A stretch of 37,702 nt of DNA. It comes from Candidatus Brevefilum sp. (lineage in GTDB: Bacteria; Chloroflexota; Anaerolineae; Anaerolineales; Anaerolineaceae). The notes beneath the pieces are model-generated. The model was given only the letters and a program-made list of their open reading frames with translations. It was not told the DNA's origin and did not search any database. The DNA lies in the NCBI GenBank assembly GCA_029210815.1, contig JARGGB010000027.1, forward strand, positions 1-37,702, read 5' to 3'. The translations under genes and the position numbers were made by a program. Positions 715 through 15,437 of the stretch are shown here, in pieces (the first letter of the stretch is position 1; the number at the start of each line of letters is the position of its first letter).

Positions 715-2622
715 ATGCTGATTTGGCCTGAAATTAAAATCATCCTGATAATCGCAATCATGCTATTGATCCCTGGCTGGGCATTTTTGGCTGTCAGCGG
801 ATTGTGGCAGCGTTATAAGGGCTTGCAGAGCTGGTTTCTTGCAATTGGGATCAGCATCGCCTTTTATCCACTCCTTTTTTACAGCGCACGCACAATACTG
901 CCAAACCTGAGGATTGGTGAAACGAAATTGACAGTTTTGCTGATTTTGATGTTGGGATTAATTGCCTGGTTTATGCGAAAATCCTGGCGTGAGCCTTTCA
1001 AAATCGGGAAGTGGGGTGGACTGTTATTGGCGATCCTGGGAGCAACACTGTTCACACGTTTCATTCTCGCGCATCAATATCCCTACCCGGCGTGGACAGA
1101 TTCACTGCATCATACATTGATCACAGACCTGGTTTATAAAACAGGGCAGCTCCCATACGACCTGCAGCCCTATGCACCAACGTCTTTAGATCAATACCAC
1201 CTGGGGCTTTATTCCCTTACCGGATCATTACAATTATTGGCAAATATCCCGGCGCATACAGCGCTATTATGGATGTCCCAGGCGCTGAACGGCCTGTGCG
1301 TTATTGGTTTATTTTTATTTCTGGATAGAAAAGTATCCAGGCTTGCCGCTTTGGTGGGCATGGTGGCTGTGGGTCTGTTCAATTTCCAGCCTGCGTGGTA
1401 CTTCAATTGGGGGCGGTTTACACAGGTCGCTTCACAATCCATTCTGTTGATTGCAGGGGTGATCACATGGGATGCAGTTGTAAGCTGGTCGAAGGATTGG
1501 CCAAACAAGAAAAAAGATGTGCTGCTGCTCAGCCTGGCTTCAAGCATCTTAATTGCAGGGGTGTTCTTGCTTCACTTCAAAGTTGCCGGCTATGCATTAC
1601 CCTTGCTCGCCATGATCTGTTTGTATGAACTGGTAAGGAATATAAAAAACAAAAGGAAAGCAAGACAAAGGCTGCTTGGTATAAGCGCCATCGTTCTTGT
1701 CAGCATCCTGTTAATCCTGCCGATCCTGATCCCCGCCGCCAATGTCTATATTCAACAGCGGACCACCCCACCGGTTATACAAGAAAATCTTGAAAACACA
1801 ATCCAAAATTCCAATCCCTATTACACCACCTATAACTTCACCTCACTCTGGCACCTTGCCCTTGAAAAGTGGCTGGCAGTGCTTGCAGTAGGAGGTGTCC
1901 TTATTGGTGTTTATCATAAAAAAACACGGCCAGTCACGATATTGATCCTTACCTGGATCACTTTCCTCTTTCTTGAAGGTTTCGCCTACTTATTAGACAT
2001 TCCTTTGCTCGCCTTTACCAACATGACGGGCATGATGATCATGCTTTATCTGCCAATGGGTATTTTGATAGGGATACTGGTAAATGGAATTATGACCTTT
2101 CTTAAACCCTACACGAAGGTAAAAATTCAGCCAATACTGATTTGGGTTTTGCTATTTTCTGGCTTCATAGCATCATTTGATCGTGTTAATGGCGTTGAGG
2201 ATTACCGCCAGTTTATGACGGATGCAGACCGAAACGCGATGGCATGGATCAAGGAAAGTACTCCCGGGGATGCCGTCTTCGCAATAAACACGCATTTCTG
2301 GCTGCCAAACGCAGCACATGGATCGGATGGCGGTTATTGGATCCCTTATTTCACCGACAGGGAAACCACAGCCAATATGATGATCGCGAACCTTGGGCCT
2401 GGATATGATGTGGTTATGGAACAATCCAATGCTGTCCTCGCTCTTTATGAAGGTGAGCCATCTCTCGGTAACCTGTGTGCGATGGGCGTGGATTACATTT
2501 ACGATGGTGCTAAAACTCCCTTCGATGGACAAAGCTTTGATATCGAACAAATAAAAAATCAACCTGGAGTAAACCTGATGTACAACACCAATGGGGTCAC
2601 AATTTTAAAGATTTGTGATTAA
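715..2622 (+). CDS. Polytopic membrane protein, probable GT-C-fold glycosyltransferase
   Basis: A 635-residue protein with about eleven to twelve hydrophobic segments in the first 490 residues and a soluble C-terminal domain of about 150 residues (VEDYRQFMTDADRNAMAWIK onward). An extracytoplasmic loop after an early helix carries YPYPAWTDSLHHTLI, with Asp and His residues placed where GT-C enzymes have catalytic or metal-binding groups. Membrane segments followed by a soluble tail are typical of lipid-phosphosugar-dependent transferases. The start at 715 has only a weak AGAGATAA ribosome binding site. It sits between another membrane transferase and two family 4 glycosyltransferases, so a role in building or transferring a surface polysaccharide is likely. 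I do not recognise a named gene; an uncharacterised integral membrane family is the alternative. Confidence 0.7.
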   Translation: MLIWPEIKIILIIAIMLLIPGWAFLAVSGLWQRYKGLQSWFLAIGISIAFYPLLFYSARTILPNLRIGETKLTVLLILMLGLIAWFMRKSWREPFKIGKWGGLLLAILGATLFTRFILAHQYPYPAWTDSLHHTLITDLVYKTGQLPYDLQPYAPTSLDQYHLGLYSLTGSLQLLANIPAHTALLWMSQALNGLCVIGLFLFLDRKVSRLAALVGMVAVGLFNFQPAWYFNWGRFTQVASQSILLIAGVITWDAVVSWSKDWPNKKKDVLLLSLASSILIAGVFLLHFKVAGYALPLLAMICLYELVRNIKNKRKARQRLLGISAIVLVSILLILPILIPAANVYIQQRTTPPVIQENLENTIQNSNPYYTTYNFTSLWHLALEKWLAVLAVGGVLIGVYHKKTRPVTILILTWITFLFLEGFAYLLDIPLLAFTNMTGMMIMLYLPMGILIGILVNGIMTFLKPYTKVKIQPILIWVLLFSGFIASFDRVNGVEDYRQFMTDADRNAMAWIKESTPGDAVFAINTHFWLPNAAHGSDGGYWIPYFTDRETTANMMIANLGPGYDVVMEQSNAVLALYEGEPSLGNLCAMGVDYIYDGAKTPFDGQSFDIEQIKNQPGVNLMYNTNGVTILKICD

Positions 2623-2643
2623 TATGAACCTGCCAGGAGAAAT

Positions 2644-3768
2644 TTGAAAATAACGCTCATCGGCCCTGTTTACCCTTATCGCGGCGGCATCGCCCATTTC
2701 ACAAGCATGCTGGCGCGCAAGCTCATCGAAGCAGGTCACGACGTGCAAATGATCTCCTTTAAAAAACAATACCCGCTGTGGCTCTACCCCGGGAAAAGTG
2801 ATAAGGACTACAGTGAAGGCCGTGAGACAATTGATGCTAATTATTTACTGACACCTTTCGACCCCATATCCTGGAAAAAGATGGTTAATGAAATCCGCAA
2901 TTTTAAGCCGCAAAAAGTGATCATCCCCTGGTGGGTGACCTTTTGGGGCCCAGCTTTTCACCACATCATTTCCTGCTTAAAGAAATATGGTATCCCATCA
3001 ACCATCTTGATACACAACACCCTGCCGCATGAAGCAAAAGTCTATGACCGGTTCCTGGCACGTTGGACTTTGCAGGAAGCTGAAAACTTCATTGTCATGA
3101 CGCAAAAAGAAAAGTTGCGCTTGACAGGATTATTACCTCACATCGAATATGCAGGCAACAAATTAGAAGTTGTCTCCCATCCAATTTACCGTGTTTTTAA
3201 ACCCTCCGGAATAGAAAAGGGTAAATTAAGATCAAAATTTGGCTTACCAGCAGAACAACCCGTGATGCTTTTTTTTGGTTTTGTCAGACTGTATAAAGGT
3301 TTGGACGATCTTCTGGAGGCACATAAGATTCTATTAGCAAGGGGATTACAAATCAGGCTGATTATTGCTGGTGAATTCTGGGAAGACATAGAAAAATATA
3401 AGCAAAAAATTGATACTTTGGAATTGTCCAATTTTGTAATGATTTTCAATAAATATATCCCGGACGATGAGGCAGCCCAATACTTTGAAATGTCAGACAT
3501 TTTTGTTGCCCCCTACAGAGGCGGAACACAATCCGGTGTTCTCAAGGCAGCCTTGGGTTTTGGCTTACCTGTTGTTTTAACAGATGTTATTATTGATGAA
3601 GTAACCGACCATTTTCCAGGATTATGTAAGATTGTTCCGCCACAGAGCCCTATGATGCTGGCAAATGGGATTGAAGAACAATTAAATACACCCCTTCTCA
3701 GCAATGCGGAAATTGATGCTGTTTTCAGTCAGACATGGGAGAAGATGGTAAAAGCGATCAGCCATTAA
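2644..3768 (+). CDS. Family 4 glycosyltransferase
   Basis: A 374-residue cytoplasmic GT-B enzyme that should transfer a sugar from a nucleotide-sugar donor to a lipid-linked or glycan acceptor. The N-terminal Rossmann half opens with IGPVYPYRGGIAHFTSML, a typical family 4 acceptor-side glycine loop. The C-terminal half starts near residue 200 (VMLFFGFVRLYKGLDDLLEA) and reaches the donor site at PYRGGTQSGVLKAALGFGLP. The Glu pair of the usual EX7E motif is not present there; the Gly-Thr-Gln-Ser-Gly form is seen in a subset of family 4 enzymes. I chose the TTG start at 2644 because AGGAGA lies at 2635-2640 just before it. It is 21 bases behind the membrane protein and directly ahead of a second family 4 enzyme, so all are probably cotranscribed. 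Donor and acceptor cannot be read from sequence. Confidence 0.88.
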   Translation: MKITLIGPVYPYRGGIAHFTSMLARKLIEAGHDVQMISFKKQYPLWLYPGKSDKDYSEGRETIDANYLLTPFDPISWKKMVNEIRNFKPQKVIIPWWVTFWGPAFHHIISCLKKYGIPSTILIHNTLPHEAKVYDRFLARWTLQEAENFIVMTQKEKLRLTGLLPHIEYAGNKLEVVSHPIYRVFKPSGIEKGKLRSKFGLPAEQPVMLFFGFVRLYKGLDDLLEAHKILLARGLQIRLIIAGEFWEDIEKYKQKIDTLELSNFVMIFNKYIPDDEAAQYFEMSDIFVAPYRGGTQSGVLKAALGFGLPVVLTDVIIDEVTDHFPGLCKIVPPQSPMMLANGIEEQLNTPLLSNAEIDAVFSQTWEKMVKAISH

Positions 3769-3770
3769 AA

Positions 3771-5003
3771 ATGAAAAACTCACAAACGACAAGCAAAAAC
3801 AAATCGGTTTTATTCTTATTAACCCAGGATCTTGAAAGCCCCTCCGGTTTGGGAAGGTATTTTCCGATAAGTAAATATTTGGCAAAGCAAGGGTTCTCCG
3901 TCAATATCGCTGCGTTACATTCCAATTATGCTTCTCTCAACACCCGGACCATGGTAAAAGAAGGTGTAAAGGTGCATTATGTGGCGCAAATGCACATTAA
4001 AAAGGAAAACAATCGGACGACATATTTTAATCCGCTTCAATTATTCTGGCATGTGATAAAAGCAACCTGGCGTTTATTCTTATTTGTTCTAAAAAATCCA
4101 GCTGACACTATTGTTATTGGTAAACCGCATCCGATGAACAGCATTGCGGGCATTCTGGGCGGCTATCTTAAGAATTCAAAGATCGTATTGGATTGTGATG
4201 ATTACGAAGCGGCTTCAAATTACTTCTCGTCAAAGTGGCAGCAAAGGATCGTCAGATTTTTTGAAGACAAAACGCCGAGGTTTGTCCACAAGATAACGAC
4301 AAACACTTTCTTTAACAAAGAAAGAATGATTGCATTAGGAGTCCCTCCTGAGAAAATTCATTACTTACCTAACGGTGTGGACCCTGATAGATTCAAGAAT
4401 ATTGATAAAAACAAAGTTGATGAGATAGTCGACAGGTTAAACCTTTCAGGCAAACAAATCATTGCCTATATTGGAAGTTTAAATCTTTCAAATCATCCTG
4501 TTGATCTTCTAATAGATGCCTTCAAACTTGTTTCAGAAGCAAATGAAAATGCAGCTTTAATAATTGTTGGTGCCGGGAAAGATTTAGAAAAGCTAAAAGA
4601 CCTGTCAATCGATCTTGGTATCAAAGATAAAGTATTTTTTGAAGGACGTGTTGACCCTGAAATGGTCGCTAATTATTATGAACTTGCTGATGTTACAGTT
4701 GACCCGGTTTATGATACTGACAGCGCAAAGGGCCGCTGCCCATTAAAGATGTTCGAGAGCTGGTTGACTGGAACACCTTTTGTGACGTCAAACGTTGGGG
4801 ATCGGAAACTATTGTCAGGAGATCTGCCGACTGCAATGTTAACGCTGCCCGGCGATGCAAGCGACCTGGCAATTAAAATAAGAAATATTATCGATAATCA
4901 AAATCTCACTTTAGAATTACGCCAAAATAGCTTGAAAACAGTCGGGCAATTTTATTGGAAAAGTCTGGTCAAAGAAAAATTCATCCCGTTAATATCAAAT
5001 TGA
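3771..5003 (+). CDS. Family 4 glycosyltransferase
   Basis: About 410 residues with a GT-B layout: N-terminal half with SGLGRYFPISKYLAKQGFSV, a middle linker EKIHYLPNGVDPDRF that is the classic family 4 hinge, and a donor half with IIAYIGSLNLSNHPVDLLID and CPLKMFESWLTGTPFVTSN, where the Glu of the donor-binding motif is kept. I place the start at the ATG 3771, two bases after the upstream stop codon; an in-frame ATG at 3735 would add twelve residues overlapping the previous gene and neither has a good ribosome binding site. Tight coupling to the preceding transferase suggests they add successive sugars to the same glycan. Only 38% or so identity-level families could be guessed by eye, so the sugar is unknown. 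Confidence 0.86.
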   Translation: MKNSQTTSKNKSVLFLLTQDLESPSGLGRYFPISKYLAKQGFSVNIAALHSNYASLNTRTMVKEGVKVHYVAQMHIKKENNRTTYFNPLQLFWHVIKATWRLFLFVLKNPADTIVIGKPHPMNSIAGILGGYLKNSKIVLDCDDYEAASNYFSSKWQQRIVRFFEDKTPRFVHKITTNTFFNKERMIALGVPPEKIHYLPNGVDPDRFKNIDKNKVDEIVDRLNLSGKQIIAYIGSLNLSNHPVDLLIDAFKLVSEANENAALIIVGAGKDLEKLKDLSIDLGIKDKVFFEGRVDPEMVANYYELADVTVDPVYDTDSAKGRCPLKMFESWLTGTPFVTSNVGDRKLLSGDLPTAMLTLPGDASDLAIKIRNIIDNQNLTLELRQNSLKTVGQFYWKSLVKEKFIPLISN

Positions 5004-5170
5004 AGCAGTTATAAGCAAAAATGTTTCTATGTGCATGCTCTTAACATTCTCCACTGAAATTCCGAAGCACCAGGACCCAATTACCAAAGTTGAATTCAAT
5101 AACTCCGTTGAAATTAGCCTCCGAATGATAGAATCATTCCTTATTTCATATTATTACCCCTAAAGTATTA

Positions 5171-5198
5171 TTGTAATAAAGGTCATTTCCTGTAAAAT
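5171..5198 (+). promoter_or_regulatory. Candidate sigma-70-type promoter of the secreted repeat protein
   Basis: TTGTAA at 5171-5176 and TAAAAT at 5193-5198 are separated by 16 bases and lie about 36 bases ahead of the start codon at 5235. The gene itself has a strong AAGGAGA site at 5223-5229. The rest of the 231-base gap is A+T rich with nothing else recognisable. The elements are imperfect, so this is a prediction from pattern only. Confidence 0.4.
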
Positions 5199-5234
5199 TA
5201 CAATTGAATTCGATTATTTGATAAGGAGATAAGT

Positions 5235-6554
5235 ATGAAAAAAGCATTTTTACTCTTCATGGTTTTATGCGCAAGCTTAGCATCCGTTGGCTCAGTTAGC
5301 GCAGCAACAACTGTCCCCGGCGGTCCATTCAGCAGTTCATTCAATATTCAAAACATTGGAACAGCATCTGCCGCTGTAATGGTGGAATATTATGACGCAG
5401 CTGGGACAATGGTATTCACATCAAATCATACCATTGAGGTGGATGACGTCCTCTCAGTTTATGTGCCCGCAGTTGTTGGTTTGGTTTCGGGTGAGTACTC
5501 AATTGTAATATCATCCGACCAACCCGTCGCAGCCACATCAAACTTCAGCGACGTTGACAGCGGCGCCAGCTATTCTGGTTTTGGAGAAGGCGCGACTGCC
5601 TGGTTTATCCCTGCTGTTTATGACAATTACTATGCATATTTCTCTGAAGTATATGCACAAAATGTGTCAGATGCAGCGGCTGATATTACCTTAAGCATTT
5701 ACGCTCCCGGCAATTCGACACCTGTTTATACAAACACAAAAACAGCTGTCCCAGCCAAAACCAGTGTGAACTGGTCCCAAAAAGACCTCACCGAACTATC
5801 AACAAATGTTTCCTATTCGGCTAAAGTCACTGCCACAGGCAATGTTGTAAGCATGGCAAACATTTATGGTTCAGGCTCAGTTGCACAGCAGTTATATTCC
5901 TATAATGCCTTCCCAGCTGGTGCCACCACATTCTATGTGCCAGCATTGTATAAAGCCTATTATGGCTGGAATGCGTCCCTGACTGTTCAGAATGTCAGCA
6001 CAGCCGCTGCAAATGTCACAGTCACATTCAGCAACGGAACAGCAAAGCCCTATACAATCCCATCTAACTCATCTGTCGCAATTTATGTTCCTGCTTTGAC
6101 AGAACTCCCCAATGGGCTCTTAAGTGCCACCGTTACATCTGACAACGATGTCGCTGTCACGGTCAATATATCAAATCCTTATAACCGAGCAGCAACTTAT
6201 AATGGAGTTGCTGAAGCAACCACAACAGTGAATGCACCCAATGTAATGAAGAATTACTATAATTACAGCTCAAGCATGACCTGTCAGAACCTAGGTACGG
6301 CTGCAACAACGATGACCGTTACTTATGCAGGTTCAGCTGCTACTGAGACATCCCCATCAATTGATCCGGGTAAGAGTTGGGAAATTTACATGCCAGCCAA
6401 GGCTGACATTCCTAACGGCTACAATGGAAGCGCTGTTGTTGTATCTAATACCGCTGAACCCATTGCATGTATTATCAATAGCAATATGGAAGCTGTACCA
6501 TACAACACACAGGTTATGGACCAATTATTCTCATACAACGGTGTGAACAAGTAA
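5235..6554 (+). CDS. Secreted protein with four tandem beta-sandwich-like repeats
   Basis: A 439-residue exported protein with a clear signal peptide (Lys-Lys at 2-3, hydrophobic core 4-18, likely cleavage after Ala23 in SVSA). The mature part is four repeats of roughly 100 residues starting near residues 27, 121, 231 and 329. Units 2 to 4 open with a Pro-x-x-Tyr/Met-x-x-Tyr-Tyr segment, and all units contain Gln-Asn-(Val/Ile/Leu)-(Ser/Gly) followed by an Ala-rich stretch and alternating beta-like residues (for example SLTVQNVSTAAANVTVTF). The protein has no cell-wall anchor or C-terminal helix. By eye it contains 14 N-x-S/T sequons and is rich in Ser, Thr, Ala and Tyr. It follows two glycosyltransferases but has its own promoter-like site and terminator, so it is probably expressed alone, perhaps strongly. 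A surface layer, sheath or adhesin role is an inference; I do not recognise a named family. Confidence 0.85.
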   Translation: MKKAFLLFMVLCASLASVGSVSAATTVPGGPFSSSFNIQNIGTASAAVMVEYYDAAGTMVFTSNHTIEVDDVLSVYVPAVVGLVSGEYSIVISSDQPVAATSNFSDVDSGASYSGFGEGATAWFIPAVYDNYYAYFSEVYAQNVSDAAADITLSIYAPGNSTPVYTNTKTAVPAKTSVNWSQKDLTELSTNVSYSAKVTATGNVVSMANIYGSGSVAQQLYSYNAFPAGATTFYVPALYKAYYGWNASLTVQNVSTAAANVTVTFSNGTAKPYTIPSNSSVAIYVPALTELPNGLLSATVTSDNDVAVTVNISNPYNRAATYNGVAEATTTVNAPNVMKNYYNYSSSMTCQNLGTAATTMTVTYAGSAATETSPSIDPGKSWEIYMPAKADIPNGYNGSAVVVSNTAEPIACIINSNMEAVPYNTQVMDQLFSYNGVNK

Positions 6555-6578
6555 AATATCAATAGCTTTTAGACTTGA

Positions 6579-6609
6579 GGGGCTAACTGAGATCAGTTAG
6601 CCCCTTTTT
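6579..6609 (+). terminator. Strong intrinsic terminator
   Basis: GGGGCTAACTGA at 6579-6590 pairs perfectly with TCAGTTAGCCCC at 6593-6604 and is followed by five T residues. It lies 25 bases after the stop codon of the secreted repeat protein and should end that transcript. Confidence 0.9.
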
Positions 6610-6676
6610 ATTATGATGTGGGATAATGATAAAATAATCTTGATAAATTAATGATTAAGGAACCTGGTTTTCGCAT

Positions 6677-7276
6677 ATGAAAAAAATTTTACATCTCGTT
6701 GCAATAGTTCTGTTTTTGCTATTATCGATTTCAGCTTGCAGTTCTTCAAATAAGACATTTACTCAATCACCGCCAAATGAGGAAATCACCCAAATAATTC
6801 CCGGGGAATCCGAGTCTTATCCTGTTTCAACTGCTGTTCGTGATGGCCAAAGCACGTCGTATCCTGCTACAGGAGATGACACTTCAGATGATAATGGGGA
6901 GTCCACACAGGCGACCTCTGAACCCTTGGTTATTCCCGATGCCAACCCTGATTCTGCAGTTGTTCACGGCCAAATATATTCATATACAACAAATGAAGTC
7001 CTTCCCAACGTAATGGTTTATCTCGCAGAGAAGGTACTGCTCGAACCTGGACCAAATTACACAATTTCTTTTCAAGAAAAATCCTCACCACACGCCCAGA
7101 CAAATGAAAGAGGTGAGTTCTTAATTGTAGATGTTGCTCCGGATGAATACATCCCGATTATGGTAACTCCATTCGGCATCTTCCCCCTTGCTAATGAAGA
7201 AACCGACGAAATAGAATTGGTTGTGGAAACCAATCAAACATATGATCTGGATACAACATTTGTGAATTGGCCTTAA
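6677..7276 (+). CDS. Lipoprotein with carboxypeptidase-regulatory-like beta domain
   Basis: A 199-residue lipoprotein: Lys-Lys, a hydrophobic core and the lipobox ISAC with the lipidated Cys at residue 21. Residues 22-90 are a polar, Ser/Thr/Pro/Glu-rich linker containing ESYPVSTAV and TSYPATGD. The C-terminal domain (about 95-199, SAVVHGQIYSYTTNEVLPNV to the end) matches the pattern of carboxypeptidase-regulatory/transthyretin-like domains: a Gly-x-Val strand, a proline-rich turn, then TNERGEFLIVDVAPDEY, where Asn/Asp-Gly-Glu-Phe marks the family. It should sit on the outer face of the membrane and bind or scaffold something; no enzyme residues are seen. AAGGA at 6656 is rather far from the start. 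It follows the terminator of the repeat protein and converges on the minus-strand operon. Confidence 0.8.
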   Translation: MKKILHLVAIVLFLLLSISACSSSNKTFTQSPPNEEITQIIPGESESYPVSTAVRDGQSTSYPATGDDTSDDNGESTQATSEPLVIPDANPDSAVVHGQIYSYTTNEVLPNVMVYLAEKVLLEPGPNYTISFQEKSSPHAQTNERGEFLIVDVAPDEYIPIMVTPFGIFPLANEETDEIELVVETNQTYDLDTTFVNWP

Positions 7277-7307
7277 AAAATATTTTTCTCTTGAAATTAT
7301 TAAGAGG

Positions 7308-8219
7308 TCACCCGGTTCTTGAGGATCTCTTGTTATTTACTGCAATTATTCCCAGCCCAATTAAAGAAACACTGACATCACCCAAATAAAGGATTACCCT
7401 GATAAGAAGGGATAAGAGGATAATTTTGGAGAAATCTAAATAGGGGGATAGCAAGGCGGTCAAGGTCAATTCGCGGAAAATCCCTGTGACCGGCATAAAG
7501 AAAAAGACTGTTCCAACAGTGCCGGTGATCACCCAAAATGATATTGATTTGAGCAAAGTGATGCTAATAGTGGGGGAAATATATGTTAAAAGCGTGTCTA
7601 AAATAAGTCCTCCCATAAACCAGCAGATCATGTAAGAAAAAAGAAGAATTAAGGGAACAAGATATTTTGACACATCGTTAGAGAATTTTTCACGCTCTAA
7701 ATGGAACATTACAAGATATGAGAAAATAAAAAGCACCCAGCCCCAGTAAAAATGTTCCACTAATAAAAAAGTTGTCGCCCCCGACAATACGAGTCCCAAG
7801 AATTCAATTGTATTTGCTTTCCCAATTTTATTTGATTTTTGTTCAATTGCGTTATTGTACAAGCTCACTCTACCATGCCAGTGCCAAAACCCACCCGGCA
7901 GTCTGCGCATCAATAATGTTTTGAAATAAATCTCAATATTATTTGTTAAGTTGGAGTATTTATTACCTACGATAATATCCCAATTCATCGCTTGCAAAAT
8001 CAATGACACAAAACCGAATAACATCGAGAGGAGAAAAGGTTTTGCAAAATTATTAATATCCAGATCCCCAATGTCTTTCCAACTAATCGCAATTAATATG
8101 ATTGGGTAAAGATAAGAAAAGGCGATTAAGAACGCGTTGATTTTCTCATTTAGCTGTAAAGCAGTAATGATCTTAGAAATTCTTTGAACTAAGGCACGGA
8201 CCGAATCTGACAATTTCAT
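7308..8219 (-). CDS. Flippase-like integral membrane protein (LPG synthase TM / UPF0104 type)
   Basis: A 303-residue protein with about eight hydrophobic segments. Between segments it carries LMRRLPGGFWHWHGRVSLY (near residues 102-120), which resembles the Pro-Gly-x-x-Trp...Gly-Arg signature of the lysylphosphatidylglycerol synthase TM / UPF0104 family, and later MPVTGIFRELTLTALLS, which resembles the family's PGGxGxRE motif. Members of that family are found with glycan and lipid synthesis genes and are thought to move or modify lipids in the membrane. The start ATG at 8219 overlaps the stop of the methyltransferase upstream (ATGA), showing translational coupling. It is the last gene of the minus-strand glycan operon. 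The family call is moderate because the motifs are degenerate. Confidence 0.62.
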   Translation of the reverse strand: MKLSDSVRALVQRISKIITALQLNEKINAFLIAFSYLYPIILIAISWKDIGDLDINNFAKPFLLSMLFGFVSLILQAMNWDIIVGNKYSNLTNNIEIYFKTLLMRRLPGGFWHWHGRVSLYNNAIEQKSNKIGKANTIEFLGLVLSGATTFLLVEHFYWGWVLFIFSYLVMFHLEREKFSNDVSKYLVPLILLFSYMICWFMGGLILDTLLTYISPTISITLLKSISFWVITGTVGTVFFFMPVTGIFRELTLTALLSPYLDFSKIILLSLLIRVILYLGDVSVSLIGLGIIAVNNKRSSRTG

Positions 8220-9145
8220 ATTTTTTTAGCCACATATGTAATATTTGTCCCCAATTTTAATTTATCGATGATCCACAGTGGCATTAATGTGATCAATCTA
8301 AGCGGCAGAAAATCCTCACCTTTATCTAAAAGTTTCGACAGAAATCTTGATTTTATATCCTTATTCCAGCGCGCTAAATCCAACATCAAAGCGCCGTGAC
8401 TTCCTGCAATACATTTCTTTGTGATAATTTTAAAACCTGATTCCTCAAGCATCTGTTTTAGCATCCCTGGAGGATATAAGTATAAATGTCTTGGCAATTC
8501 ATAGCCAATCCAGGATTGCTTAAAAATTTTTTGCCATATGCTGGTCAGGTTTGGGATTGTAAAAATGAAATAACCATCCTGGTTTAAAAGGCGAGCTACT
8601 TTTCGTATACCTGAGGCTGGTGAGGGTAAATGCTCCAGAACATCCCACATCGTGATGATGTCAAAACGGGTGCCATCGTCTTGAAAATCTTCAAATGATA
8701 AGGGATAGGTGGGAATATTCAATTTTGTTTTTGTATATTCAGCAATATTAGGAATAGGTTCTAATCCAAACAATTTCCATTGATCCCACAATTGAGCCTC
8801 TTGTAACAATCTGCCGGTGCCACAGCCGACATCGAGCCAATTGCCAAAAGATTTGTACTTATTAATAAACCTGACCCTTTTCCATAAACCATACCGCTTA
8901 TTAAGCCTTTTAAGTTTTGAAGGGATCTCTGAAACCTGCTGCCTGTGCGAAGGGAAATCATCCGGATAATATGTTAATAGGTCAAGCCAATCAAGACGAG
9001 GGTTTTGCCTTAACAAACCGCATTGAGCACATTTTACAAACTGGAAATTACCAGGCTTATCGGTAAGATAATCTCTGCTTTGCATAACAACATTATATTG
9101 ATTCGAGCCGCACCAATCACAAGGATGCTCTTTGAGTTCCATCAT
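8216..9145 (-). CDS. SAM-dependent methyltransferase with N-terminal zinc-binding motif
   Basis: A 309-residue protein. Residues 9-42 hold two CxxC pairs (C9, C12, C39, C42) that should bind one zinc ion. The class I methyltransferase core follows: motif I WLDVGCGTGRLL near residue 104, then DIITMWDVLEHLPSPASGI and a strand ending in DGYFIFTIPN. Enzymes with this arrangement usually methylate sugars or nucleotide-sugars in polysaccharide pathways, which fits its place between an oxidoreductase-glycosyltransferase fusion (one base upstream) and a flippase-like protein (overlapping). The start is one of two adjacent ATG codons at 9145 and 9142. The substrate is unknown. Confidence 0.85.
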   Translation of the reverse strand: MMELKEHPCDWCGSNQYNVVMQSRDYLTDKPGNFQFVKCAQCGLLRQNPRLDWLDLLTYYPDDFPSHRQQVSEIPSKLKRLNKRYGLWKRVRFINKYKSFGNWLDVGCGTGRLLQEAQLWDQWKLFGLEPIPNIAEYTKTKLNIPTYPLSFEDFQDDGTRFDIITMWDVLEHLPSPASGIRKVARLLNQDGYFIFTIPNLTSIWQKIFKQSWIGYELPRHLYLYPPGMLKQMLEESGFKIITKKCIAGSHGALMLDLARWNKDIKSRFLSKLLDKGEDFLPLRLITLMPLWIIDKLKLGTNITYVAKKI

Positions 9146-9146
9146 T

Positions 9147-11372
9147 TTATTTTGAGAAATCCTCGTAATTCTTCGAAATCATTAGATTCGATATATCAGG
9201 AAAATCGCCAAGGTTCTGTGAATAGCCATCACGTAAACCACGAAGGTAATGCTTAAGATACTTAAAATTATTATATTTGAATATAAAATCACGAAGAATG
9301 AAGTATGCAATTTGAATTGAATATGAAACAAAACCTGTATGGCGTCTAAAGAAACGCATACCGCTTTCGCCCATCATATGCCAGTAGACTGACATATCCT
9401 TCTTTGTCGAGGACGAAACTTTATGCCATAATTTTGCATCCGGTGCGCACCAGATGTTCAAACCGGCATTTCTAACCCTTTCAGAAAAATCCCAATCTTC
9501 AAAAAAGAAGAAGTATCCGGGGTCAAAAAGCCCAACAGATTCAAAAGCTCTTCTGTGAATAAGCAATGCACATGTCGGTGCATATTCAATTTTCCTGACC
9601 TCATCAAAATTGATATCTTTGCGATTATCTTTCAGCTTGATTGAAGGAGGAAAATTTCGGAAATAGCCACCGTCAGACCACACTTTGTCCCGCGTCGCAG
9701 CACCTTCATGAGGAGGATAGTAAAAAATCTTTGGCATGATAATGCCGCAATCATGGTCCCCATCAGACACTTCTAATAACCGAATCATCATATCCGGGTC
9801 TACAACAGTATCATTGTTCACCATAAAAATATGTTCATAATTCTCAGACAGAGCATGGTAGATACCATGATTAAAACCAGACGGCACACCAAGGTTCTTC
9901 TTCAAACTCAGTACCTCAATTTCAGGATACATTTCTCCGATGGTACCAGGCGTTCCATCAGAAGAACCGTTGTCGACTAAGAAAATCTTATAAGGTCCTC
10001 CATTGAGCTTCAACAAGCTGTTGATACATTCAATTGTGTCTCCAACATTGTTATATGTCAGAATAACGATACAGGATTTTTTCATGCGTTCCCTCTGAAC
10101 GGGTATGACATCGGCTTTAATATCCCATTTAGCTAGTACTTTTTCCGAAAGTAGTTTGGAGGATGCAATTATATCATCTACTTCGCGATGAATAAATTCC
10201 GCTGATCTGCCAAGGATATAAAAATTCCCTTCTTGATCGATGCTTTCCATAACACTGGATAATTCATTCTCGTAACCCACATGATAAACAGGATAACCAT
10301 GTTCTTTTCTGATGACTTTCGTATCCAAAATTTCTTCCCGAGTTATCATCCCAACCTTAAGTAGATCCACAATCACCTTTTCAGCGGGGTTATCCACATC
10401 CTTCGTCACTTCGGCGCATAGAACCGACGTTTCATCAGGTCGATTAATAGGACTGAGGTTCTTAAACTCCACCAAACGATTGATGGCAATTGCATCATCA
10501 ATAAAATAAACCCAGTGGTTTTCAGATACTTTTGGTTTGTTAATTAATAAATAAACCGCCTCCACTTTTCGAAAACTTTGGTTAAATTCCATATTTAACA
10601 ATCTGGCAGTTAAGGTGAGCGGTAATGTCGAAATAACTGCATCGCAAAAATATTGTTTACGATCACCATTTTCTTCGTATTGGACGCCAATAATTTTCCC
10701 GTTTTCTCTCAGCAGTGAGTGAACCGAAGAATTTAAAAGAACATTCTCTGAAATTTTGTCAAAGAGCGTATCCGCAATTAATCCATAACCCTTATCAATG
10801 GGATAATAAAAATAGGAAAAATATTTCTTAGAGCGCTTATTAATATTCTTGAACGGATTGATAAGCCGAACCTTATTTTTTGCCCATAGTACAGATATTT
10901 TCTCTGATTTAATGCCAAATAATTTTTCTGTATAAGGCTTGAAAAAGGCATGAAACATGTATTCACCATGCTTATTAATGACAAAATCACGAAAATTATC
11001 CGTTTCAACCGGTTTTTCTTTAATCAACAAATCATAAATGAGTTGAATTTTTTCCTTGAAAGGAATGAATTGGAGGAGTTCAATCGGATTAATCGGGTCA
11101 TTAACCCAGTTTCCTTTAATGTACAGGTGGCTTTTCCTGGTATGGTGAACCATTGGGACCAGATCAAGCAAAATTGACTCGACCTCATTACTGGTTGTAA
11201 AAAACCGATGTGCTGCAAAATCACAATAATGGCCATGCCAAACAAAACTCCTTGCCAGGCCGCCATAGGTGTCTTGTTTTTCGAAAATTTTAAACTCAAT
11301 TCCGGCATTATTTAAGAAATATCCTGCACTCAATCCTGATATGCCGGCGCCCAAGATGGCTACTTTTTTCAC
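9147..11372 (-). CDS. FAD-dependent oxidoreductase fused to family 2 glycosyltransferase
   Basis: A 741-residue two-part protein. Residues 1-425 are an FAD enzyme of the amine oxidase / protoporphyrinogen oxidase-like / UDP-galactopyranose mutase-like group: dinucleotide loop GAGISG at 8-13, the FEKQDTYGGLARSF segment, and DFAAHRFFTTSNEV, a signature of the type found in polysaccharide clusters. Residues 432-741 are a family 2 glycosyltransferase: CIVILTYNN, FLVDNGSSDGT and the metal-binding region MVNNDTVVDPDM, ending with a FFFFEDWDFSERVR acceptor-side segment like rhamnosyltransferases. The GTG start at 11372 has GTGAGG just upstream. At the junction, Met430 (ATG at 10083-10085) is preceded by AGAGGG and five bases, an internal ribosome binding site, so a separate transferase might also be made. 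The reaction of the FAD half is unknown. Confidence 0.85.
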   Translation of the reverse strand: MKKVAILGAGISGLSAGYFLNNAGIEFKIFEKQDTYGGLARSFVWHGHYCDFAAHRFFTTSNEVESILLDLVPMVHHTRKSHLYIKGNWVNDPINPIELLQFIPFKEKIQLIYDLLIKEKPVETDNFRDFVINKHGEYMFHAFFKPYTEKLFGIKSEKISVLWAKNKVRLINPFKNINKRSKKYFSYFYYPIDKGYGLIADTLFDKISENVLLNSSVHSLLRENGKIIGVQYEENGDRKQYFCDAVISTLPLTLTARLLNMEFNQSFRKVEAVYLLINKPKVSENHWVYFIDDAIAINRLVEFKNLSPINRPDETSVLCAEVTKDVDNPAEKVIVDLLKVGMITREEILDTKVIRKEHGYPVYHVGYENELSSVMESIDQEGNFYILGRSAEFIHREVDDIIASSKLLSEKVLAKWDIKADVIPVQRERMKKSCIVILTYNNVGDTIECINSLLKLNGGPYKIFLVDNGSSDGTPGTIGEMYPEIEVLSLKKNLGVPSGFNHGIYHALSENYEHIFMVNNDTVVDPDMMIRLLEVSDGDHDCGIIMPKIFYYPPHEGAATRDKVWSDGGYFRNFPPSIKLKDNRKDINFDEVRKIEYAPTCALLIHRRAFESVGLFDPGYFFFFEDWDFSERVRNAGLNIWCAPDAKLWHKVSSSTKKDMSVYWHMMGESGMRFFRRHTGFVSYSIQIAYFILRDFIFKYNNFKYLKHYLRGLRDGYSQNLGDFPDISNLMISKNYEDFSK

Positions 11373-11424
11373 ATAACCTCACAAGAATTATTAAAAATGT
11401 ATTCTCAAAATAGTACGCTTCAGC

Positions 11425-12684
11425 TCAATTGATGATCTGTGGTATAGCAATTGTGTAGATTGCTTGATACTTGATATTATTACTGTAATACGCTCCGTCT
11501 TCATCTCTTCCCCCAAAAATATAGAAGTGCCCTTCTAAAGAAGAGATGGCATTGTTCTGATAGATGGTGAAATCTGGGTCAACAACAAATAAATTCCAAA
11601 CATCATTCTGGTTTGAATAATTAAGAATTCCTTCCTCACCTATTACATAAATCAATTCAGATAAAGCAGACACATTGTAAGCATTGAAATCATCCCGAAT
11701 AGGGTTTTCAACTTCCCAGGCGGTTTCACCTGTTGTGTCCCTCGCAGGCAAATAACTCTCATTCACATCCAGTGCCTTTTCCCCATCCCATCCGCCAATC
11801 ACATAAATCTTTCCGCCGGCTTCAGCCGCCCCGGCAAATGCTCTTGCAGTTGGCATCGGTGTTACCTCATCCCATTGATCATCCTGTGGGTCGTAACGCA
11901 GCGCAGTATCCAGTACTTTCTCCCCATCCCAGCCGCCAAAGAGATAAACTTGCCCTTCAAAATCAGCCAGGGCATAACCGCTCACCTTTATCGGCAGCGA
12001 CGCTTTCTGTTCCCAGGTGTCTCGGCGCGGGTCATACACTTCCAAAATGTCTGTCGGTTGATCATCAGCCAATCGTCCCCCCGGTACATAAATCTTCTCA
12101 CCTACCAAAACCCCTTTGACATCCGCTACCGGTGTCGGCTTGTCGCTGAGCACTTCCCAGCGATCATCATCAGTAACATATCGGAAAACACCGCCGCTGA
12201 CGCCCTCCGGCCCCTCCCCGGCAATGGCGTAGATATCCCCATCATAAGCTGCCGCTGCCATGCTGGATCGCGGCTCTGGCAGCGGTGCCAGTTCTTGCCA
12301 ACGTTCAGGCACTTCGGTAACAAGCCCGGCATTGGATATTCGTTGTGGGAACAAAAGATCCCACCCAAAAGCGATTATAATCAGTAAGACCAATCCAATA
12401 ATGCTAACAAATGTCCAGGGGATTTTCTGAACCACCGTCACGGTTTGAACTTGTGCTGCATCCCCGTTGGCTCCCGGTACATCAACAATGCCGTGTTCAA
12501 TACCGTACAGCGTAGCTTCTGTCCGGGATGCTACACCAATTTTCTCAAAGATATTTCTCAAATGAACTTTAACTGTGTTTGGACTGATCGTCAGTGATTG
12601 CGCAATCTCGCGATTGGTTAAACCCGTCGCAACAAGCTGCAGGATTTCTATTTCGCGGTCACTGAGTGCGTTTGTTTTAGACAT
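11425..12684 (-). CDS. Membrane-anchored LuxR-type regulator with Kelch propeller
   Basis: A 419-residue protein of three parts. Residues 5-65 are a LuxR/GerE helix-turn-helix (LSDREIEILQLVATGLTNRE, then SPNTVKVHLRNIFEKIGV). A single transmembrane segment follows at about 86-108 (WTFVSIIGLVLLIIIAFGWDL). Residues 125-410 contain about five to six Kelch repeats with Gly-Gly followed by spaced Tyr and Trp (QVYLFGGWDG, KIYVIGGWDG, HFYIFGGRDEDG), which should form a beta-propeller outside the cell. The layout is like ToxR/CadC one-component regulators: DNA binding inside, sensing outside, no kinase or receiver domain. A promoter-like site lies just upstream. The ligand and targets are unknown; the nearby M23-like gene and glycan operon are candidates. 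It lies 52 bases ahead of the fusion gene and could be cotranscribed with it. Confidence 0.85.
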   Translation of the reverse strand: MSKTNALSDREIEILQLVATGLTNREIAQSLTISPNTVKVHLRNIFEKIGVASRTEATLYGIEHGIVDVPGANGDAAQVQTVTVVQKIPWTFVSIIGLVLLIIIAFGWDLLFPQRISNAGLVTEVPERWQELAPLPEPRSSMAAAAYDGDIYAIAGEGPEGVSGGVFRYVTDDDRWEVLSDKPTPVADVKGVLVGEKIYVPGGRLADDQPTDILEVYDPRRDTWEQKASLPIKVSGYALADFEGQVYLFGGWDGEKVLDTALRYDPQDDQWDEVTPMPTARAFAGAAEAGGKIYVIGGWDGEKALDVNESYLPARDTTGETAWEVENPIRDDFNAYNVSALSELIYVIGEEGILNYSNQNDVWNLFVVDPDFTIYQNNAISSLEGHFYIFGGRDEDGAYYSNNIKYQAIYTIAIPQIIN

Positions 12685-12716
12685 AAATTTCCCAATATTT
12701 TTTCATGATCGAATGA

Positions 12717-12746
12717 ATTATACTGGCATCCCTGCTATTCTGGAAA
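12717..12746 (-). promoter_or_regulatory. Candidate promoter of the LuxR-Kelch gene
   Basis: Read on the minus strand, TTTCCA (12746-12741) and a perfect TATAAT (12722-12717) are 18 bases apart, about 33 bases ahead of the start codon at 12684. The -10 element is perfect and the -35 element matches four of six positions. Confidence 0.45.
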
Positions 12747-12868
12747 TTAGCATCTTTGAGGAACAAACTCCGGGTAAATATTCACAAACAGTCATCAGCA
12801 CATTTGCAAATTTTTCTGATCATTTTAAGCACCTGGTTTCCAGATAGGATAGACTTTATTAGAAACTT

Positions 12869-12906
12869 AAAAAGGAAAGTCACGCAGAATGGTCATGCGT
12901 GACTTT
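12869..12906 (-). terminator. Intrinsic terminator behind the M23-like gene
   Basis: TGCGTGACTTT (12896-12906) and AAAGTCACGCA (12876-12886) form an 11-bp stem with a nine-base loop. On the minus strand the stem is followed by CC and five T residues. It lies about 45 bases past the stop codon at 12950 and should end that transcript. On the plus strand it is also followed by T residues, but no plus-strand gene reads into it. Confidence 0.78.
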
Positions 12907-12949
12907 TTATCCTTATTGAACGCAATAACGCTTTCTTCCTGATACCTGA

Positions 12950-14983
12950 TTAATACCCATTATAAACCGGGAACAGAATATATTGATAAGGCCACTCAAA
13001 ACCATTGGTGTACATGAGGTGCTCCTGGGTGGTTTGATGCCCCGACTTATCATAAGCGGTTATCGATACCACAATTAGTTGATTGGGAAGCACATTTAAT
13101 CTATACGATGTCGTCGATGCAGGCAAATTATCAGCCAGCACCTGGTAATCACCATCATTTACTTTTACAGATAAGGCGTAATGATCAATGCCAGACATAT
13201 TATCCCCGCCCGACCAGGTAATATTGACCGCGTCTGTCATGATCGGCGAAGTCACCGGGTTAATCTTCAGCCAGGGGGGCGTTCGATCAACAACCCCGAT
13301 AAATATTATGCCCCCACCCTTGTTCCCGGAAGAATCCGTTGCCAATGCAAATATGATGTAATTGTTGGCTTCAGCCCAATTAGTGGTTGAAATCGGCACT
13401 CGCCAGAAATCTTGAGTATAGGTATCCTTGCCCAAGTAAACACGATCATCAGCGAATAAATTCTGGCCTAAGAACCAGAATTCAACAGAAGAAATTGGGC
13501 TATCGCTGCTGCCTGGTGTCGCACTGACGCTAACCGTTCCCTCTTCAGGCAAATACCGGCTCGTAAATGTAATATCCGGATTTTTACTGCAATTTACATT
13601 CTTAAACACCTCACGCCTTCCCAAAATAGATGAGGGATTGCCTTCGTAATCCCAAAGGCGAATGGCAATGTCAAAATAACCATCAGGAACATTTGTATTG
13701 CAAAAATCAACGTTTGTTGTAAAGCTTGTCCCGCCAGGTCCTTCGCCGATCGTAACCCAGCTGCCATTATAGTCAGCCAGCACCTCTACTTTGGTGACTG
13801 CCACATCATCCCTGCCCCAACCTGTCACCGTCAAGGTTTGGTTTGTAAGATATGTATTTGCCGCCGGCGTGGTCAAACCGCCAGTCGGTGGGTTGGCAGG
13901 CGCATTTCCTGAAACATAATAAGTCCTTCCTACTCCACCATAGGTTGCTGCCTCATATGCCAATCGCGGGCGTCCACCCCGCGTAACCGGGTCCCAATTA
14001 ATATCCACATCTCTAAAGGTGATATCCTCTGCAACACCCCAATAGGATTGCATGCTGTAAGAAAAATAACGCGTGTCTTCAGTCACCACCATAAAGTGAA
14101 CATGGTGCCCCGAGCTGTAGCCTGTATCGTCAACGTTGGCGATATATTGCCCCTGGGTGACGGGTGTACCTACTTTTTTGAGCCCGGTTGGCACGCTGCC
14201 CTGGGCAATATGCAGGTAGATTTGGTAGGTCCAGGGTGTTGTGGATTTATCCTGGATGGTGATGCTGTTCGTACAGGTTGAATCTCCATTTGCGCAGGTA
14301 TCCCGCCAGTGGAACACAGAACCGCCTTTTGCCGCAACCAGCGGGAACATTGTGCCATCCGCAAAATCAAATGCATGGGTGCAGTAATAAATGGGATAGC
14401 AAGAGCTGTGACCCACTGACCAGGTTAGCCGCTTTTCTAAACTCTTTGCCCAGGGCAAATAATAGCCGCCGTAAACGGTGCCTGATTTTGGCAAAGCTTC
14501 TTGTTCGCCTGACAGGATATCACCATTTAAAAGGCTTTTTTCTGCATATTGAAACGTCTTAAAAGCTGCTTCAAAACTGGGCTCATCTTCTAAGAAAATC
14601 CGCCATTCACCCAGCTCATTCTGTTCAGCCACAGCCAGTTCCGGTTCTCTGCCTAAAAATTCTCCAGTTTCCGGGTCTATAGGTGCCAGCCAAACAATCG
14701 CCATCTTTCCATCATCCTGAAGTTGGATGTGGTCAATCTTATAGGTTGACTCCTTCCATCGCCCGGTGCTGTTGGCTAAAGCCAATTCAATTGCTGCTTC
14801 CAGGTCTTTTCCGACCTCAAGATCAGGCGGGGGTGCTTCTTGATCACCGGATGGCGGGGTTTCTGTGTTTATCGCCTGGCTCAATGCAGGATCGTTTTTT
14901 GGAATATCAATTAATAAAACAGCGCCCAAAACAACACAAAGGATAACCAGCAGGACAATACCAAATTTTAGTGTTTTACTCAT
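12950..14983 (-). CDS. Exported M23-type (LytM-like) endopeptidase-like protein with Ig-like domains
   Basis: About 677 residues with an N-terminal membrane anchor or signal segment, an acidic N-terminal domain, an M23-like domain near residues 195-310, and two or three C-terminal Ig-like beta domains (TGGLTTPAANTYLTNQTLTV; VDRTPPWLKINPVTSPIMTD onward). The peptidase-like domain has CTHAFDFADG, with His and Asp as possible zinc ligands but spaced HxxD instead of the usual HxxxD, and TGYSSGHHVHFMV, which keeps the HxH motif. It may cut peptidoglycan peptides or be a non-standard or inactive relative. I place the start at ATG 14983 because GGAGAA (14996-14991) lies seven bases ahead; an in-frame ATG at 14998 would put that site inside the gene. 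It is transcribed alone, with its own terminator. Confidence 0.8.
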   Translation of the reverse strand: MSKTLKFGIVLLVILCVVLGAVLLIDIPKNDPALSQAINTETPPSGDQEAPPPDLEVGKDLEAAIELALANSTGRWKESTYKIDHIQLQDDGKMAIVWLAPIDPETGEFLGREPELAVAEQNELGEWRIFLEDEPSFEAAFKTFQYAEKSLLNGDILSGEQEALPKSGTVYGGYYLPWAKSLEKRLTWSVGHSSCYPIYYCTHAFDFADGTMFPLVAAKGGSVFHWRDTCANGDSTCTNSITIQDKSTTPWTYQIYLHIAQGSVPTGLKKVGTPVTQGQYIANVDDTGYSSGHHVHFMVVTEDTRYFSYSMQSYWGVAEDITFRDVDINWDPVTRGGRPRLAYEAATYGGVGRTYYVSGNAPANPPTGGLTTPAANTYLTNQTLTVTGWGRDDVAVTKVEVLADYNGSWVTIGEGPGGTSFTTNVDFCNTNVPDGYFDIAIRLWDYEGNPSSILGRREVFKNVNCSKNPDITFTSRYLPEEGTVSVSATPGSSDSPISSVEFWFLGQNLFADDRVYLGKDTYTQDFWRVPISTTNWAEANNYIIFALATDSSGNKGGGIIFIGVVDRTPPWLKINPVTSPIMTDAVNITWSGGDNMSGIDHYALSVKVNDGDYQVLADNLPASTTSYRLNVLPNQLIVVSITAYDKSGHQTTQEHLMYTNGFEWPYQYILFPVYNGY

Positions 14984-15437
14984 AAAAAGTTTCTCCATAG
15001 CTATCGCGGTCTCAAAACATAATCGTTTTGGTCTCGCGCGTTTGCTTTTTTGTCTGTTCTATGACTTGCAAGGTTTGTGCCAATAACATGAAAACGGATT
15101 AAAAATCCTTCTCGGAACACAAATCTCCAAACCAAAAGGGAGCCATTCTTCAAATGTTAAACTTTCATAATAAAGGTAATTAATTAGAGATACATAGGCG
15201 CTATAGCCCGGGTAAATATGAGGGTGTTGAAAATTGCAATTAATAATGCCCAATTTCCCCGTAGGGGCAACCCTCTGTGGTTGCCCAGCCCGAAGGGTGC
15301 ACGCGAGGCAGACACGGAGGTCTGCCCCTACATATTGTCCAAATTTTGTTATAAATATTATTATTTTGAAATCAGGTTAAATTTCACACAAGCTTTTTTG
15401 ACCATCTTTTGTTTTTCAACACTCTCAAATATAGCAC
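14984..15437. other. Intergenic region between divergent genes
   Basis: This is the left part of a roughly 600-base gap between the M23-like gene (leftward) and greA (rightward). I see no credible coding frame in it. It contains the ribosome binding site of the M23-like gene at 14991-14996 and a compound palindromic repeat at 15261-15331, listed separately. No convincing promoter for the leftward gene could be picked out by eye. Confidence 0.5.
15261..15331. repeat. Compound palindromic repeat (nested hairpins)
   Basis: The outer arms GTAGGGGCA (15261-15269) and TGCCCCTAC (15323-15331) are exact inverted repeats. Inside them sit two more perfect hairpins: GGGCAACC/GGTTGCCC at 15265-15286 with a six-base loop, and GGCAGAC/GTCTGCC at 15307-15326 with a six-base loop. 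The element is G+C rich in an A+T-rich gap and has no coding frame of note. Similar GTAGGGGC-bounded elements are, to my recollection, dispersed in many copies in other bacterial genomes, so this is probably a miniature non-coding repeat. Confidence 0.75.

Follow-up and report, generated by a model that had tools for sequence, protein, structure and literature searches.

Is the polypeptide read from the reverse strand at positions 9147–11372 of the window (the whole stretch of 37,702 nucleotides from Candidatus Brevefilum sp. analysed here) a genuine fusion of a flavoprotein with a family 2 glycosyltransferase (GT2), is its transferase half also made on its own, and what would a flavin domain do on the same chain as a glycosyltransferase? 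An earlier note on this DNA had described FAD and GT2 halves in one protein at these positions, correctly in all respects. The region is a single open frame of 741 codons that starts with GTG at 11372, ends with TAA at 9149–9147 and encodes one protein of 741 aa. A Pfam scan of this protein identified Amino_oxidase (residues 11–272), NAD_binding_8 (residues 6–67), and Glycos_transf_2 (residues 434–612); the GAGISG FAD loop occupies residues 8–13, and the Glycos_transf_2 match (66.8 bits against a cut-off of 23.3), together with a DXD-type motif, assigns the second half to GT2. A single-sequence structure model (pLDDT 34) was not usable. The gene is divided as follows:

9147..11372, (-): fused CDS, UGM-like FAD domain plus GT2 domain, 741 aa (full-length homologues in 10 other genomes)
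10128..11372, (-): FAD domain, residues 1–415 (Pfam; profile match to UGM 4dsg)
10077..10127, (-): variable linker, residues ~416–432 (length and sequence differ among 11 fused proteins)
9147..10076, (-): GT2 domain, residues 433–741 plus stop (Pfam Glycos_transf_2; alignment to stand-alone orthologue)

The fusion in relatives and its history

Full-length homologues with the same fusion, whose search the earlier note had proposed as a check, are encoded by 10 other genomes (G119, G163, G214, G532, G687, G763, G727, G744, G865, and G795) from five families and two classes of the window's phylum; these proteins show 41–51% identity to the window protein, and each of the 10 genes is one frame of full length without internal stops. 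Fused homologues were found by searching the FAD half or the whole protein against sampled genomes (1,406 genome searches, overlaps included); because only the best five, four, and two candidates per genome were scored in the three sampled searches, under strict E limits, the 11 fused genomes represent a lower bound (at least 11). Outside both the fused and the GT-only counts are G1050, whose FAD half is cut by a contig end so that the C-terminus is missing, and G003, a member of the same genus with a GT fragment at a contig end. In other phyla, the fusion was sought in plasmids, viral contigs, and one scan of genome contigs; none of 240 matching plasmid records covered ≥80% of the query, the viral contigs contained distant or partial relatives only, and the scan of genome contigs yielded one weak locus. 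An artefact, by which a frameshift or a lost stop codon in this assembly would join two separate genes, has a negligible probability, as nothing in its favour was found and the homologues refute it; a sequencing or assembly error at the seam was likewise rejected, given the same single frame without internal stops in 11 assemblies. The earlier note had also considered that the genes fused recently by loss of a stop codon, an idea that is contradicted because 11 genomes across families and classes share the fusion and, most simply read, the tree has the FAD half being lost afterwards. This is a genuine fusion of long standing.

Trees were built for the GT half (45 rows) and for the FAD half (34 rows). 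In the GT-half tree, a clade of 14 (97/93) contains all 11 fused proteins and three GT-only proteins (G004, G700, and G1001); G004, which belongs to the window's own genus, is sister to G000+G763 (100/100), G700+G1001 group with the fused G532+G687 (100/99), and the fused set as a single clade was rejected (p-AU 1.4e-7). This tree requires three changes, in the simplest case a single gain of the FAD half followed by two losses, with gain and loss indistinguishable from the change count in this tree by itself. In the FAD-half tree, the fused proteins form one group (100/100) with the stand-alone G839 protein (460 aa) and the contig-end-cut G1050, and the 21 remaining stand-alone relatives in the tree fall outside it; the basal placement of G839 within this group is poorly supported, with long branches meeting at that split (program warning). 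Three pairings agree between both half-trees (G000+G763, G163+G214, and G532+G687). The two trees fit one old fusion followed by at least two putative losses of the FAD half, one of them in the window's own genus.

The stand-alone FAD-clade gene of G839 (L163 1432–2814; 460 aa) is located on a 3.1-kb contig, upstream of a gene that by eye resembles a metallo-beta-lactamase fold.

The seam and a possible internal start

The earlier note had pointed to a ribosome binding site at the seam, and its positions for this site were exact: AGAGGG (10096–10091) is followed by five bases (AACGC) and by the ATG at 10085–10083, which encodes Met430 and leaves a remainder of 312 aa. The start-related sites are:

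10091..10096, (-): AGAGGG, Shine-Dalgarno-like (SD-like) hexamer at the seam (from sequence; unconserved)
10083..10085, (-): in-frame ATG, Met430 (from sequence; no same-offset ATG in the 10 other fused genes)
11377..11380, (-): GAGG ahead of the GTG start, probable ribosome binding site of the whole gene (pairing energy -6.5)

Such a site could give rise to two products, the full-length protein and a separately started 312-aa GT2 from Met430, which would fit any reading of the flavin domain. The pairing energy of the seam site with the anti-Shine-Dalgarno sequence (-6.9) is as good as that of the gene's own start (-6.5). However, in a control set of 233 long ORFs from the window and 20 stretches of the same genome, 128 of 1,884 internal ATGs (~7%), as compared to 28% of first ATGs, paired at -6.9 or lower, and 108 of the 1,884 had GAGG, AGGA, or GGAG upstream at the same spacing. 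An ATG at Met430's offset from the GT core is absent from all 10 other fused genes, the nearest relative, G763, included; G119 alone of the 10 has an ATG within six codons of this offset (one codon away, with AAGGA upstream). The linkers of the 11 fused proteins vary in length and sequence, and conservation of AGAGGG across fused homologues, which the earlier note had named as a test of its proposal, is absent, with no SD–ATG combination at one shared place.

In a wider test, which accepted ATG, GTG, or TTG anywhere in the 26-codon linker stretch at an energy of -6.9 or better, 4 of 11 fused genes presented a site, as compared to 171 of 1,850 stretches taken at random from these genes (2 of 11 and 79 of 1,850, respectively, for ATG alone); the independent count, with the window site that had suggested the test left out, is 3 of 10 linkers (1 of 10 for ATG alone). 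Start-like sites are thus slightly commoner in the linkers than expected by chance, a weak excess that comes partly through the window site. Each of the four sites lies at a different codon (the window ATG, an ATG in G763 nine codons earlier than the window's, a TTG in G744, and a GTG in G795), and these differing places argue against dual products.

In the linker of G744 (L167), GGAGG forms a strong SD-like site (energy -12.8) upstream of an in-frame TTG, which precedes the GT core by five codons. Within the family, this is the most promising candidate for a genuine internal start.

Among relatives, G004, from the same genus, encodes exactly the GT half alone (312 aa), with a start within two residues of Met430; this gene shows that the GT half can stand alone, and is not proof of separate synthesis in the window organism. 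The weak linker excess, the strong G744 site, and the G004 gene speak for the separate synthesis that the earlier note had envisaged, and the unconserved, ordinary quality of the window's SD–ATG speaks against it. The balance leans against, so that two products from the window gene appear quite unlikely; the main product is probably one chain, and a separate GT half is unproven.

Relationships of the two domains

The nearest NCBIfam models to the FAD half are those of the PRK07208 group, which carry the name "hypothetical protein" and for which no mention was found in the papers searched; the best of these, NF005548, matched residues 2–414 (E 4.8e-55) at 187 bits, under its equivalog cut-off of 389. 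The UGM model TIGR00031 scored 44.3 bits, far under its curated cut-off of 303.75, and Pfam GLF scored 25.6 bits for the window protein, slightly below the cut-off of 26.3; at E 0.001 or better, GLF was matched by 10 of the 13 proteins searched (the FAD half is present in 12 of these 13). When a FAD family profile (seven rows, 411 positions) was run against PDB sequences, the 14 best sequences were all UGMs, with 4dsg at the top (E 4.1e-29, positions 3–389 of 411); among the best 60 of 138 PDB matches, the non-UGM ones mostly cover the N-terminal nucleotide-binding part alone. The extents of the 4dsg and NF005548 matches show homology over the whole domain to the UGM-like/PRK07208 flavoprotein superfamily. 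The best solved relatives across the domain, 4dsg and 3ute, are the eukaryotic UGMs TcUGM and AfUGM. Residues mapped from AfUGM are:

11208..11210, (-): His55, equivalent of AfUGM His63 (residue mapping)
10872..10874, (-): Lys167, at the position of AfUGM Arg182 (Lys in 13/13 clade members)
10476..10478, (-): Arg299, equivalent of AfUGM Arg327 (Arg in 12/12 clade members reaching this far)

Equivalents of His63, Tyr317 (presumably with a functional role), and Arg327 are kept as in the eukaryotic UGMs, with His55 present in all 13 clade members, Arg299 in all 12 that reach it, and Tyr289 also kept in the FAD clade. By contrast, the second active-site Arg (R182) is replaced by Lys167 in 13 of 13 members, the UGM flavin-loop GGH is changed to AAH, ASH, APH, or GAH, and a C-terminal stretch that in stand-alone relatives is mostly R/K-Y-N-N-x-D-H reads H-x-E-V-D-D or close variants in the FAD clade; the window's FAD domain also differs from UGM in being fused to GT2. 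For AfUGM, H63, R182, and R327 mutants are reported to be impaired in activity (PMC3893270), with R182K retaining 0.10 of activity in Table 2 of that paper, and the UGM His loop is described as shifting with flavin redox state (PMC3624792). The PRK07208-type oxidoreductases (NF005548 and its sisters), while being the nearest curated models, differ in that the sampled stand-alone relatives lie on a separate side of the tree (100/100) and are without the GT2 fusion. Judged by these comparisons, the FAD half forms its own branch within the UGM-like superfamily and does not qualify as a UGM by the curated test.

The GT2 half contains near-invariant residues (Asn519–Asp521, Asp626, Asp628, and His650), of which two sites are placed as follows:

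9810..9818, (-): Asn519-Asn520-Asp521, DXD-type donor/metal motif of the GT2 domain (near-invariant)
9423..9425, (-): His650 of the GT2 domain (near-invariant)

This half scores with rhamnosyl- and galactofuranosyltransferase-type GT2s (TIGR01556, GlfT1, and GlfT2), but under their cut-offs (24.8 bits for the GlfT1 model, cut-off 330). A profile of the GT half (nine rows) matched the galactofuranosyltransferases 9dtp and 4fix among PDB sequences, whereas a control profile of eight unfused GT2s matched them with better E-values; no GlfT1/GlfT2-specific similarity beyond general GT2 was therefore seen, and the donor is unreadable from the resemblance to GlfT2. A Galf-transferase identity drawn from the PDB matches was dropped for the same reason. 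Of the 59 GT columns without variation among the fused proteins, 2–12 are changed in GT-only proteins (4–6 in the three nested ones), and fused members left out singly differ at 0–5 of 59–64 invariant columns; no donor-switch signature was seen in these comparisons of fused and GT-only proteins, which speaks against a simple furanose model. A match above the UGM cut-off was present in only one of 23 genomes, G700 (GT-only); none was found in the 11 fused genomes or in the eight other GT-only genomes, some of whose assemblies are incomplete, and the absence from G004 is weak evidence because this assembly is 69% complete.

These observations bear on what the flavin domain does. UGMs rearrange the sugar ring using reduced flavin, with no net redox change. 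The earlier note had called the FAD half a redox sugar modifier; that it is a flavin enzyme agrees with our results, and the redox part sits poorly with UGMs as its nearest solved relatives. The FAD domain could nevertheless carry out genuine redox chemistry as an oxidase, dehydrogenase, or desaturase, its substrate being a nucleotide sugar, the lipid carrier, or the glycan once transferred; the fusion would then tether it to the assembly complex and not supply a donor. The uncharacterised names of its nearest curated models, the partial replacement of UGM signature residues, and the near likeness of the GT half in fused and never-fused proteins, which may mean that the donor is independent of the FAD half, are consistent with this; however, UGMs are far ahead among solved structures, with matches extending along the domain, and the Arg327 equivalent is retained in every clade member that reaches it, so we consider a redox enzyme rather unlikely.

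The glycan locus and a proposed role of the flavin domain

The fused gene is part of a conserved glycan locus (window 715–14998), parts of which reappear in distant relatives, in combinations, orders, and orientations that vary. Its genes encode a membrane protein, two GT4s, a secreted-looking 440-aa protein, a lipoprotein-like protein, a second membrane protein, a methyltransferase, the fused protein, a LuxR-Kelch protein, and an M23 peptidase, and include:

8216..9145, (-): methyltransferase (Methyltransf_23), next downstream of the fused gene (homologue adjoins 9/10 other fused genes)
7308..8219, (-): membrane-protein-like gene, no Pfam family, hydrophobic by eye (homologue in 9/10 other fused loci)
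6677..7276, (+): lipoprotein-like protein of the locus (locus comparison)
5235..6554, (+): secreted-looking protein, no Pfam family (homologue in 9/10 other fused loci)
3735..5003, (+): GT4 glycosyltransferase (in G163, G214, and G865, a homologue immediately precedes the fused gene)
2644..3768, (+): second GT4 glycosyltransferase of the locus (Pfam; locus comparison)

Homologues of the genes at 8216, 7308, and 5235 occur in the same nine loci, the exception being G119, with a contig of 5.3 kb; homologues of the GT4s, the LuxR-Kelch protein, and the M23 peptidase are present in some of the loci. In seven of nine GT-only genomes (G004, G934, G1002, G904, G843, G1001, and G897), a GT2 without the FAD half lies beside the methyltransferase homologue in the same locus; in G1068 and G700, no methyltransferase homologue was seen beside the GT2. 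The FAD half behaves as an optional module within a single glycan locus. That it was lost at least twice while the GT half stayed, as the tree is most simply read, might suggest a domain that has given up catalysis and acts in the GT2 enzyme as a structural part or a redox-sensing regulator, which we regard as very unlikely given that GxGxxG, His55, Arg299, and many other columns are conserved at 41–51% overall identity.

Proximity of the two enzyme types extends to distant stand-alone FAD homologues, as a GT2-like ORF was found within ~1.5 kb in 8 of 54 loci (some of them the same gene twice), as compared to 5 of 300 random 4.3-kb control windows, all from the window's genome. On Gloeothece and Methylomagnum plasmids, a stand-alone FAD gene directly follows a GT2/GTA gene, with an overlap of four bases between the two genes in Methylomagnum.

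Several other features of these loci were recorded. The protein encoded at window 11425–12684 (419 aa) combines a LuxR-type HTH domain with a Kelch propeller, with a hydrophobic stretch between them by eye, and its homologues lie near the locus in several relatives. The protein encoded at 5235–6554 contains 13 N-x-S/T sequons, as compared to 7.3 in shuffles; it was rejected as a candidate glycan acceptor, as a sequon excess (observed count reached in a fraction of shuffles below 0.05) was found in only 5 of 18 orthologues. In G004, a TylF-type methyltransferase gene (L123 10514–11353; Pfam E 1.7e-99) is located upstream of the FAD-less GT2 gene.

The best single reading, tentative and far from shown, is that a UGM-like mutase domain feeds its own attached transferase. 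By analogy with AfUGM, the flavin domain would bind a nucleotide sugar, with His55 beside the reduced flavin and Arg299 and Lys167 on the diphosphate, and would rearrange it, most simply from pyranose to furanose via a flavin-N5 adduct; the attached GT2 domain would then move the rare sugar form onto a lipid- or protein-linked glycan, which the adjacent GT4s, methyltransferase, and membrane proteins may help to build. The UGM equilibrium lies strongly towards the pyranose, and tying the user to the maker would therefore raise the local supply of donor. The proposal of the earlier note that a transferase is tied to the maker of its donor accordingly describes a plausible pair whose function is inferred. 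Possible, though to be held with some reserve, is the more specific reading of a self-supplying furanosyltransferase, in which a new UGM-like subfamily would hand a scarce nucleotide-furanose or other rearranged sugar to the GT2 on the same chain, as a plug-in module gained once and lost repeatedly.

In galactan loci such as that of Kingella, a UGM gene (pamB) is described beside Galf transferase genes (pamA/pamC) (PMC12269835). Maker and user of UDP-Galf are likewise side by side there, but as separate proteins, whereas one polypeptide is encoded in the window. Among the literature matches listed, titles and the openings of abstracts contained no description of a UGM–glycosyltransferase fusion, and no work on galactofuranose in Chloroflexi was found by title or abstract opening. 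Should the flavin domain prove to be a nucleotide-sugar mutase, the protein would be a natural maker–user fusion for an activated sugar with an unfavourable equilibrium and would offer a ready system for testing channelling; it would also open a way into the function of the PRK07208-like flavoproteins, which are uncharacterised, and of the surface glycans in this phylum.
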